Translations under genes and position numbers: made by a program | Assembly (NCBI GenBank): GCA_035691305.1 | Contig: DASSJF010000087.1 | Span: 1 to 62,574 of the forward strand | Length of the DNA stretch: 62,574 nt | Direction of reading: 5' to 3' | Origin: a bacterium | Lineage (GTDB): Bacteria; Sysuimicrobiota; Sysuimicrobiia; Sysuimicrobiales; Segetimicrobiaceae | Shown: in pieces, positions 3,555 through 8,327 of the stretch | Position numbering within the stretch: the stretch's first letter is position 1 | Layout of the letters: each line of letters begins with the position of its first letter | The notes under the pieces: model-generated | The model's input: the letters and a program-made list of their open reading frames with translations, nothing else | What the model was told of the DNA's origin: nothing | Database searches by the model: none

Positions 3555-4349
3555 TTGGCAACGCGCCGCAAGGGCCGCCGGCTCCTGGACAAGGAACAGG
3601 TCCGGGCCCTCTTCCAAAGGTTCCAGGACGCCCGCAGCCCCGAGATCCGCGAGGAGCTGACGCTCGCGCACGAGAGCCTGGCGATCTATCTCGCGCGCAA
3701 GTTCGCGGACCGCGGCGAGCCGCTCGACGATATCATTCAGGTCGCCCAGATCGGCCTCCTGAAAGCGATCGACCGCTACGATCCGACCCGGGGCATCGAG
3801 TTCACCACGTACGCCACGCCGACGATCGTCGGCGAGATCAAGCGCCACTTCCGCGACAAGCTGTGGGCGATCCGCGTGCCGCGGCGTCTCCGCGAGCTCA
3901 ACTATACGCTGATGCGCGCGATCGAAGATCTCTCCCAACGGCTCGGCCGCTCGCCGACGATTCCGGAGATCGCGCAGTTCACCGGGGTCGACTTCGAAGA
4001 CGTTATCTCCGCGCTCGAGGTCGGCCGCGCCTACAGCCTGGTGTCGCTCGACGCGGAAACCAGCGACGGCGACGAAGAGCACAGCGTTTCGCTGCTCGAG
4101 TCGGTGGGGGACGAGGACGAAGCCCTCGAACGGCTGGAGGACCGTGCCACCCTGGACTGGGCCCTTGCGCGGCTTCCCGAGCGGGCCCAGCAGATCATCC
4201 GGATGCGCTTCTTCGACGATCTCTCGCAGGCCGAGATCGCGCGCCGGCTCGGTATCTCGCAGATGCACGTCTCCCGGATCCTCCGCGAGGCGCTCGCGCG
4301 GCTGCGCGCGCTGGTCACCGACCGCCGCCCGTCCCCCGAAGATTCGTGA
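3555..4349 (+). CDS. RNA polymerase sigma factor of the SigB/SigF/SigG family
   Basis: 264 residues from TTG 3555 (weak AGGG 9 bases upstream). Region 2 includes LDDIIQVAQIGLLKAIDRYDP and FTTYATPTIVGEIKRHFRD, the hallmark of the B/F/G group. Region 3 (about residues 125-185) and region 4 with the HTH LSQAEIARRLGISQMHVSRI are complete. The partner is the RsbW-like protein just upstream. It probably directs a stress or developmental regulon, perhaps including the YtxH and DUF948-like genes upstream. The exact regulon cannot be read from this window. Confidence 0.95.
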   Translation: MATRRKGRRLLDKEQVRALFQRFQDARSPEIREELTLAHESLAIYLARKFADRGEPLDDIIQVAQIGLLKAIDRYDPTRGIEFTTYATPTIVGEIKRHFRDKLWAIRVPRRLRELNYTLMRAIEDLSQRLGRSPTIPEIAQFTGVDFEDVISALEVGRAYSLVSLDAETSDGDEEHSVSLLESVGDEDEALERLEDRATLDWALARLPERAQQIIRMRFFDDLSQAEIARRLGISQMHVSRILREALARLRALVTDRRPSPEDS

Positions 4350-4368
4350 CCCCGCCCGCCTGATCGCG

Positions 4369-5691
4369 GTGGCCACGTTCGCGTCGGCCGCGGCGATCGT
4401 GGCGCACCTTCGGGATGCCGGTTTCGAGAGCTACCTGGCCGGCGGCTGCGTCCGGGACCGGCTGCTGCGCCGGCCCGCCGCCGACTACGACATCGCCACC
4501 GCCGCGCGCCCCGAGGAGATCGCGCGGCTGTTTCCGCGGACGATCGATGTGGGCGCGGCGTTCGGCGTGATGCGCGTTCTCGGAGTTGACGGCGACTACG
4601 AGGTCGCCACGTTCCGGACCGAGGGGCCGTATCTCGACGGCCGGCATCCGTCGTCGGTGCGGTACGCGGATCCACGCGAGGACGCGCGCCGCCGCGACTT
4701 CACCATCAACGGTCTCTTCTACGATCCCGCCGCGGCCACCGTGCTCGACTTTGTCGGCGGCCGCGCCGACCTCGAGGCGCGGGTCGTGCGGGCGATCGGC
4801 GACCCGGCGGTGCGGTTCGAGGAGGACCGGCTGCGCATGCTGCGCGCGGTGCGCCTGGCCACCGAGCTCGACTTCACGATCGCCCCGGAGACGTTCGAGG
4901 CGATTCGCCGGCGGGCCGGCGACGTGCTCGCCGTGAGCGCCGAGCGCGTCCGGGACGAGCTCGTGCGCATGCTGATCGGCCACGATCCCGGACGCGCGCT
5001 CGCGCTGCTGCGGGACACGGGTCTCCTCGAAGCCGTGCTGCCGGAGATCGCGAGGGAGATCGGGGTCCCGCAGCCGCCCAATTTCCATCCCGAGGGCGAC
5101 GTGTTCGAGCACACCAGGCGCACCGTCGCCGCCCTTCACGAGCCCTCCGCGGCGCTGGCGATGGCGGCGCTCCTCCACGACGCCGGAAAGCCGGAGACGC
5201 TCGAGTATGCTCCCGATAGGATCCGCTTCAGCCGGCACGACGAGCGCGGCGTAGAGGTCGCCCGAGCGGTGATGGAGCGCCTGCGCTTTCCGCGCCGGGA
5301 CACGGATCGCGTCGCGGCCCTGGTCGGCCGCCACATGGTGTTCAAGGACCTGCCGCAGATGCGCGAGGCGAAGCGCCGGCGGCTGCTCACGGACGAGATC
5401 TTCCCGGATCTGCTCGAACTCCACCGCGCCGACTGCGCGGCGAGCCACGGGGACCTGTCGCTGTACGAGTGGGCCCGCGAAGAGGCCGGACGGACCGCGG
5501 CGACCGCGCCCATGCCGGAGCGCTTCGTGTCGGGACACGACGTGCTGGCGCGCGGGGTGCCGGCGGGACCGCGCATCGCGGAGATCCTCGAGGCCGTGGA
5601 CGACGCCCGGCTGGAAGGTCGGGTGCGCACGCGCGAGGAGGCGCTCGTCTTTATCGACGGCCTGCTCGCGGGGGGCAAAGGAGAACCTTGA
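4369..5691 (+). CDS. cca: CCA tRNA nucleotidyltransferase with C-terminal HD domain
   Basis: 440 residues from GTG 4369 (CTG at 4360 is a less likely alternative). The class II nucleotidyltransferase head carries LAGGCVRDRLL and the DYDIAT acidic pair (about residues 20-45), then RRRDFTINGLFYD. An RNA-binding helical region follows, then an HD domain with HTRRTVAALH and LLHDAGKP (about residues 250-270). It adds or repairs the 3' CCA of tRNAs; the HD part probably gives phosphodiesterase or phosphatase activity. The only tRNA in the window already encodes CCA, so the role here would be repair or processing of others. The stop overlaps the parA start. Confidence 0.95.
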   Translation: MATFASAAAIVAHLRDAGFESYLAGGCVRDRLLRRPAADYDIATAARPEEIARLFPRTIDVGAAFGVMRVLGVDGDYEVATFRTEGPYLDGRHPSSVRYADPREDARRRDFTINGLFYDPAAATVLDFVGGRADLEARVVRAIGDPAVRFEEDRLRMLRAVRLATELDFTIAPETFEAIRRRAGDVLAVSAERVRDELVRMLIGHDPGRALALLRDTGLLEAVLPEIAREIGVPQPPNFHPEGDVFEHTRRTVAALHEPSAALAMAALLHDAGKPETLEYAPDRIRFSRHDERGVEVARAVMERLRFPRRDTDRVAALVGRHMVFKDLPQMREAKRRRLLTDEIFPDLLELHRADCAASHGDLSLYEWAREEAGRTAATAPMPERFVSGHDVLARGVPAGPRIAEILEAVDDARLEGRVRTREEALVFIDGLLAGGKGEP

Positions 5692-6611
5692 GCCGCGGCG
5701 AACATGCGTGCGACCGGCAGGGGCCGGGCCCGGCGGCATCGGGCCCGCTTGGCGGCACCGGCACGGAGGACGGGGACCTGGGCGCAGACGGCACGACCAC
5801 GGCCCGCGTCATCGCCCTCGTCAATCAAAAGGGCGGATGCGGGAAGACGACGACCGCCGTAAACCTCGCGGCGTGCCTCGCCGTCAGCAAGCGCAAGGTG
5901 TTCCTCATCGATCTCGATCCGCAGGCCAACGCCACCGTCAGCCTCGGCGTGGATCCGGCGTCGCTCGCGCGCACGATGTACAACATCCTGGTCGAGGACG
6001 CGCCGGGCAACGGCCAGTCCGCCGATCTCGCGAGCATCATCGCGCCGACGAACGTGCCGAACCTCGACCTCGCGCCGTCATCGATCGACCTCGCCGCCGC
6101 GGAGCTCGAACTGTCGGCGCGGATCGGCCGCGAGAACGCCCTGCGCAAGAAGATCGCCCCGCTGCGCGAGCGCTACGATTACATCATCATTGATTCGCCG
6201 CCGTCGCTCGGTCTCTTGACGATCAACGCCCTCTTCGCATGCAGCGAGGTGATCATCCCGATCCAAACGCACTACTACGCGCTGCTCGGGATGAGGCAGC
6301 TGCTGCGGACGCTGAAGGCGGTGCGCGAAGAGGCCGGCCATGAGGTCGAGATCGCCGGCGTCGTGCCGACGATGTACGACGCGCGCACCAGCGTCGGCAA
6401 GGAGATTCTGAACGGCATCCGCGACTACTTCGGCGAGAAGGTGTTCGCGAGTGCGATCCATTTCAACATCAAACTGGTCGAGTCGAGCATGGTGGGCGTG
6501 CCGGTGTTCGTCCACCAGCCCTCCTCGCGCGGGGCCGCCGAGTACATGGCTCTCGCGAAGGAGGTGATGGCCCTTGAGCAAACAGCGAGACGCGCTCCGG
6601 CGCGGAATTAG
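5688..6611 (+). CDS. parA: ParA-family partition ATPase (orphan, no ParB nearby)
   Basis: 307 residues from TTG 5688, with AAAGGAG 4 bases upstream and overlap with the cca stop. A 40-residue Gly/Asp-rich tail precedes the deviant Walker A NQKGGCGKTTT (residues 46-56), where Val of the usual KGGVGKTT is Cys; the signature Lys is kept. Walker A' (FLIDLDPQANAT) and Walker B (YIIIDSPPSLG) are intact. ParA ATPases position chromosomes, plasmids or protein cargo on the nucleoid. No parB or parS-like site is seen. The gene immediately downstream overlaps by 38 bases and starts with a ParB-like N-terminal peptide, so it is the likely partner. Confidence 0.93.
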   Translation: MSRGEHACDRQGPGPAASGPLGGTGTEDGDLGADGTTTARVIALVNQKGGCGKTTTAVNLAACLAVSKRKVFLIDLDPQANATVSLGVDPASLARTMYNILVEDAPGNGQSADLASIIAPTNVPNLDLAPSSIDLAAAELELSARIGRENALRKKIAPLRERYDYIIIDSPPSLGLLTINALFACSEVIIPIQTHYYALLGMRQLLRTLKAVREEAGHEVEIAGVVPTMYDARTSVGKEILNGIRDYFGEKVFASAIHFNIKLVESSMVGVPVFVHQPSSRGAAEYMALAKEVMALEQTARRAPARN

Positions 6612-7353
6612 AGACCTCCTCCAGGACACCTCGCGGGACCTCGTGGCGTTCGAGGGCCGCGAACCTCGTCCGCGTCCCGCCGTCCCGCCGGCGCCCGAGC
6701 CCGAAGCGCCGGCCCCGCCGCGGCCCGGTCCCTCGGAGAGCGGCGGCGCCGCGTACGACGCACCATCGCCGAACGGCGGTCCCGTAGATGCCGTCGCGGA
6801 GGGCGCCGCCGCCCGTGCGGAGCCAACGGTCGTTGCGCCCCGCCATCAAGACGAGCGTCTGCACGTCGAGGACGCTCCCGCCGAGGCCCGGCGAGAGGAG
6901 CCGGCGGCCGAGGCGTCCTCGCCGCCCGCCGCGGCCCCCGGGCCGCGGCCTCCACTGGAGCTGACCCTGCCGGCCGCGTTCTCGCGTCCCGTCCTGTCCG
7001 GCCGGATCAAATCGAAGCCGCGGCGCGGCGAGAGCGCCGGTGAGCGGCCGAGGTCCAAATCGGGGGCCAGGAAGTCGAAACCGCCGCGCGCGCACCGGGC
7101 TCCGGTTCCCGTGCGCGGAGGCCCCGCGGTGCCCGCGGACGACCTCGTCACGGAAGACGTGGGCCCGGCGCCGACCGAGTCGCGGACGGGCGTCTGCCGT
7201 TCGTACTTCGTCAACCACGAATGCTGGCGCGTGCCCGCCGCGTACTGCAATACGGCGCTGCAGGTCTGCGTGATCCGCAACTGCCCGGTGTACCACCTAC
7301 ACAAGGACGCCCTCGAGCGCCGCTTCGCAAAAAAGTTCAAGCACTTCTGGTAA
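6574..7353 (+). CDS. Unknown ParA-partner candidate: basic N-peptide, disordered linker, five-Cys C-terminus
   Basis: 259 residues from TTG 6574, overlapping parA by 38 bases. Three parts are visible. First, a basic amphipathic start (MSKQRDALRRGIRDLLQ) reminiscent of the N-terminal ParA-activating peptide of ParB proteins. Second, a Pro/Ala/Glu-rich, probably disordered stretch (about residues 28-200). Third, a compact C-terminal module with cysteines at 208, 217, 225, 232 and 237, ending in conserved-looking aromatic/basic residues (FAKKFKHFW). The cysteines could bind zinc or an iron-sulfur cluster. No ParB DNA-binding HTH is present. I do not recognise the family. An A-AAA-AAG heptamer lies near the 3' end (7329-7335). 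Confidence 0.85.
   Translation: MSKQRDALRRGIRDLLQDTSRDLVAFEGREPRPRPAVPPAPEPEAPAPPRPGPSESGGAAYDAPSPNGGPVDAVAEGAAARAEPTVVAPRHQDERLHVEDAPAEARREEPAAEASSPPAAAPGPRPPLELTLPAAFSRPVLSGRIKSKPRRGESAGERPRSKSGARKSKPPRAHRAPVPVRGGPAVPADDLVTEDVGPAPTESRTGVCRSYFVNHECWRVPAAYCNTALQVCVIRNCPVYHLHKDALERRFAKKFKHFW
7329..7335 (+). promoter_or_regulatory. Possible -1 ribosomal frameshift heptamer (A-AAA-AAG)
   Basis: In the reading frame of the Cys-rich gene the codons are gcA AAA AAG, which is the canonical dnaX-type slippery heptamer. A -1 slip would move ribosomes into the frame of the downstream oxidoreductase, bypassing the stop at 7351-7353. No strong downstream hairpin or upstream Shine-Dalgarno-like stimulator was obvious by eye, so the function is unproven. 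Confidence 0.3.
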
Positions 7354-7358
7354 CGCCC

Positions 7359-8327
7359 GTGGCAGATGTCGGTCTGATGATCGAGGGGCAGGAGGGTCTC
7401 ACCTGGGACCGGTGGCGCCGCATCGCGGACGCGGTCGAGCGCTCCGGCTTCGAGTCGCTCTGGCGGTCCGATCACCTCTTCTCGCTCTTCGGCGTCGCGG
7501 ACCGTCCGGGCCTCGACTGCTGGCCGTCGCTGACCTACCTTGCCACCGCGACACGGCGGATCCGGTTCGGCCCGCTCGTTTGCCCGATCACGTTCCGGCA
7601 CCCGGCGATGACGGCGCGGGAGGCGGCAGCCGTCGACGTGCTGTCCGGCGGGCGGCTCGACCTCGGCCTGGGCGCGGGCTGGCACGACGGGGAGCATCAC
7701 GCGTTCGGCGTCCCGTATCCGCCCGTGGGCGAGCGCGTTCGGCGGCTCGGCGAGGCGGTCCAGGTCATCCGCGCGCTGTGGGCCGGCGGTCCGGCCCGCT
7801 TCGAGGGAAGGTACTACCGGCTGGACGGCGGGACCGCGTGGCCGAAGCCGGTCCAGCGCCCGCGGATCCCGCTGATTATCGGCGGCAAGGGACCGAAGGT
7901 GCTCGAGGTGACGGCGCGCTACGCGGACGAATGGAACTGCGGCGGCGCACAAAGACCGGCCGGGGTCCGCGAGCGCACGGCGACACTCGAGGCGGCATGC
8001 CGGAGGGTGGGACGAGACCCCGCGTCCGTTCGGCGGTCATGGATGGGTGGGATCCTGATCGGCGAGAACGGCGCGGCGCTCGAGCGCCGGGCGCGCGCCG
8101 TCCAGGAATACGTCGTCACCCGCGCGGCCACGCCCCCGGCGAAGCTTCCTCACGAACTCCGGGAGGCGGGATGGCTGGCCGGCACGCCCGAGGAGATCGT
8201 CGAGCAGATGAGCGCGCTGACCGCCGAGGGGATCAGCCGCTTCAACCTACAGTTTTTCACGCTCGATGATCTCGACGCGGTGCACCTGGTCGGCGAGCGG
8301 ATCGTTCCCGCGGCGGCGCGGCTCTAG
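7359..8327 (+). CDS. LLM-class (luciferase-like) F420/flavin-dependent oxidoreductase
   Basis: 322 residues from GTG 7359, 5 bases after the previous stop. The bacterial-luciferase-like TIM barrel is recognisable from ESLWRSDHLFSL near the N-terminus, the CWPSLTYLATATRRIRFGP strand and the nucleotide-binding stretch LSGGRLDLGLGAGWH. These enzymes use F420 or FMN; the family is abundant in GC-rich soil bacteria. The substrate cannot be deduced. The same frame stays open back to 7221 inside the previous gene. It converges with the minus-strand HAD gene and their stop codons share the CTAG at 8324-8327. Confidence 0.9.
   Translation: MADVGLMIEGQEGLTWDRWRRIADAVERSGFESLWRSDHLFSLFGVADRPGLDCWPSLTYLATATRRIRFGPLVCPITFRHPAMTAREAAAVDVLSGGRLDLGLGAGWHDGEHHAFGVPYPPVGERVRRLGEAVQVIRALWAGGPARFEGRYYRLDGGTAWPKPVQRPRIPLIIGGKGPKVLEVTARYADEWNCGGAQRPAGVRERTATLEAACRRVGRDPASVRRSWMGGILIGENGAALERRARAVQEYVVTRAATPPAKLPHELREAGWLAGTPEEIVEQMSALTAEGISRFNLQFFTLDDLDAVHLVGERIVPAAARL

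Follow-up and report, generated by a model that had tools for sequence, protein, structure and literature searches.

What does a ParA ATPase act on when the gene beside it does not encode a recognizable ParB? The locus studied here raises this question. It lies in a window of 62,574 nucleotides (the whole stretch of DNA that was analyzed), which is contig C87 of a 3.58 Mb genome, 96% complete, from the phylum Sysuimicrobiota, as the CSP1-3 phylum has been named (PMC11604079). Our literature search returned nothing on ParA in this phylum. We consider it likely that the two genes encode a positioning system in which ParA works on the nucleoid through an adaptor of a new kind, a system conserved throughout Sysuimicrobiota.

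Gene arrangement

The features of the locus are collected in Table 1. The pair sits in a housekeeping neighborhood that is broadly conserved among loci, in the order mnmA-cca-parA-partner-asnS-rimP-nusA (names from sequence). The preliminary description of this DNA had noticed that the ParA gene overlaps its partner, and we confirmed this overlap at 38 nt. As the stop of the cca-like gene also overlaps the start of parA, all three genes are probably translationally coupled. In the window, the partner gene is followed by an LLM-type oxidoreductase gene (7366-8327, by sequence reading), which is also seen in L036 and was not found at this place in the other compared loci.

Table 1. Positions of the genes, protein segments, and overlap within the window.
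Feature	Position	Strand	Description
Upstream cca-like gene	4219..5691	+	CCA-adding enzyme by sequence reading; start uncertain; stop overlaps parA start
parA	5688..6611	+	Soj-like ParA-family ATPase, KGGCGKTT, phylum-specific subfamily; TTG start at 5688, stop codon 6609-6611
Partner gene	6574..7353	+	259 aa; TTG start at 6574, stop codon 7351-7353; 38-nt overlap with parA
parA 3'/partner 5' overlap	6574..6611	.	38 nt; register common to the window and 37/40 relatives
N-terminal helix, predicted ParA-activating peptide	6574..6651	+	Partner aa 1-26; AF2 helix 2-27; in 41/41
Core motif LRRGIRDLL	6595..6621	+	Partner aa 8-16; equivalent of ParB LGRGLxALI
Linker, predicted disordered	6652..7188	+	Pro/Ala-rich; variable length; AF2 low confidence
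C-terminal Cys module	7189..7350	+	54 aa; 5 invariant Cys, CW motif, C-terminal Trp

Distribution of the ParA-partner pair

The ParA-partner pair is real, ancient, and phylum-wide. When the last 58 residues of the partner were searched in 61 genomes, a single match was found in each of 41 of the 43 genomes of the same order (E from 1.6e-39 to 1.4e-19) and in none of the 18 genomes outside it; a phylum-level search returned the identical set of 43 genomes. In all 41 module genomes (the window's own and 40 relatives), the gene immediately upstream, in the same orientation, encodes this ParA, and the linked pair spans 7 families and 22 genera. Of the two misses, one (G001) encodes the ParA (90% identical) and the N-terminal peptide on a contig that ends before the module, and the other (G034), with neither ParA nor partner, is 72% complete. 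A profile search with the module alone and a neighborhood survey, both proposed in the preliminary description, thus point to conserved linkage with ParA.

Beyond the phylum, a profile search of 386 genomes, at least 343 of them outside Sysuimicrobiota, gave weak outside matches (best E = 5.4e-4), and no module orthologue was found in 344 genomes from outside the phylum. Alignment of the module against 84,980 species genomes returned 26 loci, and those compared match phylum genomes already found. The full-length partner, used as a query against genome contigs, returned nothing where the module alignment succeeded, probably because the variable linker supplies most of the patterns. No relatives of the module were found in plasmids, phages, or viral contigs. 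One genome (G033) carries a second copy of ParA and a gene with the N-terminal peptide on contig C144 (L140), with masked stretches; this copy is either a duplicate or derived from a contaminating strain.

A subfamily of ParA distinct from Soj

The ParA is assigned by Pfam to AAA_31 (AAA_31/CbiA; E = 4.9e-59), and among solved structures M. xanthus ParA (8RAY) comes closest. Residues K31, D58, D60, and N64 are kept, and the catalytic Lys, Asp, and Asn are present in 40/40 subfamily members, so the protein has the features of the Soj-type deviant Walker A ATPase of ParABS systems. At the DNA-binding position R238, a positive residue is retained in the subfamily. From these conserved residues, the protein would be expected to form an ATP-dependent dimer on nucleoid DNA.

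In a phylogenetic tree, all 40 subfamily ParAs fall into one clade (support 100/98) that is distinct from Soj. A single row, X_L148, joins near this clade, on a long branch that leaves the exact sister unsure. The window ParA is 65-93% identical to ParAs within the clade and no more than about 51% identical to the nearest others. The P-loop reads NQKGGCGKTT(T), and KGGCGKTT had been described beforehand as a variant. The motif stands, and its cysteine (C34) is a hallmark of the whole subfamily (40/40), at a position where 24/27 Soj proteins have Val; the full motif is less uniform, as ten relatives have KGGCAKTT. This form, with Ala for Gly before the Lys, belongs to ParAs of one family (L054, L056, L058, L059, L063, L064, L065, L067, and L070, with the L069 ParA, in which KGGxGKTT is absent and the motif itself was not displayed).

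The pocket that receives ParB is kept for the most part. Y81, D110, E117, L150, L152, and L155 are retained, and four residues of the pocket region are replaced in nearly all subfamily ParAs (E176 by L, L187 by M or V, L192 by V, and N193 by G). Given that these changes are nearly subfamily-wide, the pocket may be tuned to a private peptide.

A ParB-like N-terminus on the partner

The partner protein begins LSKQRDALRRGIRDLLQDTSRDL, and the ParBs that follow the nearest outside Soj proteins start with, for example, MKKKALGKGLDALI. In M. xanthus ParB, binding to ParA requires L11, L15, L18, and I19, whereas R13 is required for activation (PMC12462528). The partner residues L8, R10, [ILV]12, [LFIV]15, and [IL]16 correspond, at equal spacing, to ParB L11, R13, L15, L18, and I19; L8 is found in all members, and R10 is replaced by His in two. 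This motif, which by sequence is the N-terminal ParA-binding element of a ParB component, was found in 41/41 partners (40 by script and L046, outside the script's range, read separately), against an expected fraction of 0.00025 among shuffled N-termini. AF2 modeled residues 1-30 with a block pLDDT of 84-92. The ParB-like, ParA-activating N-terminus that had been claimed therefore keeps all five functional positions, and these data strongly suggest that a protein lacking the ParB domains carries an activating peptide of the ParB type. The peptide has a mean net charge of about +1, with slightly negative values in some members, which makes it less basic than known activators. This, together with the partly changed ParB-contacting residues of the pocket, counts against a positioning role.

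Conservation of the peptide could also be a side effect of overlapping the 3' end of parA, in a coupled operon whose products have no functional interaction. The 38-nt overlap does have a fixed register, with the partner starting at -37 from the parA stop in 37/40 relatives, as in the window. However, variation in the overlap is concentrated in the third positions of partner codons (mean entropy of 0.43, 0.55, and 1.00 bits at positions 1, 2, and 3), the pattern expected when constraint is stronger on the partner frame, and the motif runs past the overlap. The exceptions to the register also speak against a by-product: in L046 the motif is kept beyond the parA stop, without an overlap, and in L060 and L061 it is kept where the parA frame runs on, giving a longer overlap and a different parA end. 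We regard this explanation as extremely improbable.

Separation from the chromosomal Soj-ParB-parS system

ParB_N was found at another locus in 40/43 genomes, including 28/28 of high quality. The preliminary description had allowed for a ParB/parS system elsewhere that uses this ParA. A canonical locus is indeed present in the same genome (ParB on contig C61, close to an exact parS and to another with one mismatch), but it has its own Soj, from which the ParA studied here is distinct. Within the 62.6-kb window, no parS site was found with up to 3 mismatches; L191 has a single, weak near-parS. At 17 of the 18 inspected outside loci of the nearest ParAs, ParB lies downstream.

The partner itself has no match in Pfam, NCBIfam, or PHROGs, and thus no detectable ParB_N or HTH, and neither the ParB_N CTPase fold nor an HTH was matched by Pfam or NCBIfam in any of 39 homologues. 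The absence of a DNA-binding HTH, as originally proposed, is borne out by these searches. A match to the NCBIfam family MXAN_5187 among the homologues (E = 2.1) was dismissed as noise. The pair resembles Soj-ParB in its ParA (identity of up to about 51%, catalytic residues and most of the pocket shared), in its adjacent, often overlapping genes, and in a partner that starts with a ParB-type LxRG[LI]xxLI. It differs in that the partner lacks the ParB CTPase fold and HTH, there is no parS, E176, L187, L192, and N193 are replaced, and true ParABS systems are separately present in Sysuimicrobiota genomes.

The partner might nevertheless be a DNA-binding ParB-like adaptor whose module is a zinc-finger-type domain, with the pair partitioning or organizing DNA. 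The module is mildly basic by sequence and could bind DNA (mean net charge of +2, and +6 in the window), the ParA has Soj-like ancestry, and ParT is described as a CTP-independent ParB-like protein in a ParABS-like system (PMC12260392). Against this, a complete Soj-ParB-parS system is found in the same genomes, parS is missing from the window, no HTH or known zinc-finger family was matched, and several members have a module with zero or negative charge. On balance, we think a DNA-binding adaptor unlikely.

The linker and the cysteine module

The disordered linker of the preliminary description agrees with low AF2 confidence, a Pro/Ala-rich composition (38% Pro+Ala), and a length that varies from 45 to 287 aa among homologues. 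In 25/41 partners (e.g., L045, L053, L059, and L068), the linker contains a motif like RPILRLVR (RP[IVL]LRLVR), possibly a second binding site; the window's family is without it.

The five-cysteine C-terminal module was likewise upheld. It occupies exactly the last 54 aa of the protein; five Cys are present in 41/41 members and a final Trp in 40/41. Across 39 aligned homologues, C208, C217, C225, C232, and C237 do not vary, and the other invariant residues of these sequences include L8, R13, G206, W218, A223, N226, A228, L229, R235, and P238. Five invariant Cys make metal binding by the module plausible. AF2 models the module as helical; folded alone, it reached a pLDDT of 69, and Foldseek returned no match with that model. 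The only PDB sequence match of the module, a scorpion toxin (E = 0.37), is attributed to chance.

By way of the best outside match of the module, we reached a set of small proteins from one other lineage, with the consensus MKxCYDxRGCPASHYLxCxAYxxxKxCWEVxxIPCCKRNDKERCxxCPIY. Profile comparison of the module with these small CW proteins gave 96.4% and a score of 45.6 over 35 columns. As 100 shuffles that kept the Cys and Trp columns scored no more than 24.9, the match reflects more than cysteines, and by its sequence the module is distantly related to the small CW cysteine proteins. It shares the CxAYx5CWx7C...CP[VI]Y pattern with these and with the two-CW modules (NF045718) but has a single CW half and an extra helical tail with a terminal Trp. 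NF045718 (two_CW) gave nothing over its curated cut-off in the window's genome or in 39 homologues, and the small CW proteins match it weakly (E = 0.29). In the literature, we found no described function for the CW relatives and nothing on the two-CW domain. One locus (L162, on contig C2 of G330) encodes a MerR-type regulator that has a double CW Cys-rich stretch at its end and is possibly a ligand or metal sensor. The preliminary description had named homologues of the module without ParA as a refutation. This holds in part: distant relatives in other lineages occur without ParA, and the orthologues are always found with it.

These relatives bear on a possible role of the module as a redox or metal sensor controlling ParA, which would make the pair a signaling switch more than a cargo carrier. 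Such a role could draw on the five invariant Cys, on the subfamily-specific P-loop Cys of ParA (40/40), and on the CW motif in small stand-alone proteins and at the end of a MerR-type regulator. However, the very variable length of the linker favors tethering over allostery, and we judge a sensor to be very unlikely.

A probable positioning system and its possible cargo

The original proposal of a ParA system that positions a protein cargo, or that is gated by a metal or Fe-S cluster, survives in part, with a ParA system for cargo other than parS DNA as the best reading and protein as one possible cargo, given the conserved linkage, the peptide, the lack of a DNA-binding fold, the separate Soj-ParB-parS system, and a ParA distinct from Soj. 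In such a system, the ATPase would dimerize with ATP on nucleoid DNA, and the partner would serve as its adaptor and activator. The N-terminal helix of the partner would dock in the cleft where the ParA dimer receives ParB, leading to hydrolysis and release, while the disordered linker would act as a flexible tether and the five-cysteine module, probably metal-stabilized, would attach to a cargo that is thereby spaced or centered on the nucleoid. Activation, DNA binding, metal binding, and cargo attachment are steps that we infer.

The cargo should be something that every member has, and the housekeeping neighborhood names none. A microcompartment was rejected as the universal cargo, with PF00936 in 1/43 genomes and not in the window's own, as were flagella and chemotaxis, which have been reported from just two of the five families (PMC11604079). 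FtsZ was found in 28/28 high-quality genomes and MinC in 0/28, with one sub-cut-off match elsewhere; no MinD exceeded the curated cut-off in the 43 genomes. With FtsZ present and MinC absent, the division machinery is our leading guess, and a role at the division site or pole is attractive. The more specific possibility that this Soj-derived system positions the division site, or another universal structure, through a metal- or Fe-S-binding adaptor, and does so in response to metal or redox state, we hold to be quite unlikely.

Other cargo adaptors carry a charged N-terminal ParA-binding peptide (PMC10241942, PMC12204374), and both McdB and PomX reach their ATPases in this way (PMC10241942, PMC12204374, PMC13170346). 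The pair resembles McdA-McdB in its two-protein layout, putative N-terminal ATPase-binding peptide (a resemblance by sequence), long stretch predicted to be disordered, and nearly invariant C-terminal Trp (PMC12204374, PMC11321042), which the partner has in 40/41 members. Unlike McdAB, it occurs with a Soj-like ParA in genomes of which 42/43 are without a microcompartment protein, and the Cys module is not among the described C-terminal motifs of McdB. PomX-PomZ, which acts at the division site in M. xanthus, also combines a nucleoid ParA/MinD ATPase with an activator that has a short N-terminal peptide (PMC13170346), and this function is open in a phylum without Min. However, the PomX peptide was modeled at a MinE-type site, and the ParB-type site is not that of PomX.

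The partner represents a class without a counterpart in the family libraries searched, in what would be a core, phylum-wide ParA system. The natural changes in the ParA pocket make the avoidance of crosstalk between ParA paralogues directly testable, with the organism's own Soj-ParB as a control. The pair also raises the question of how the division site is placed in a phylum without Min.
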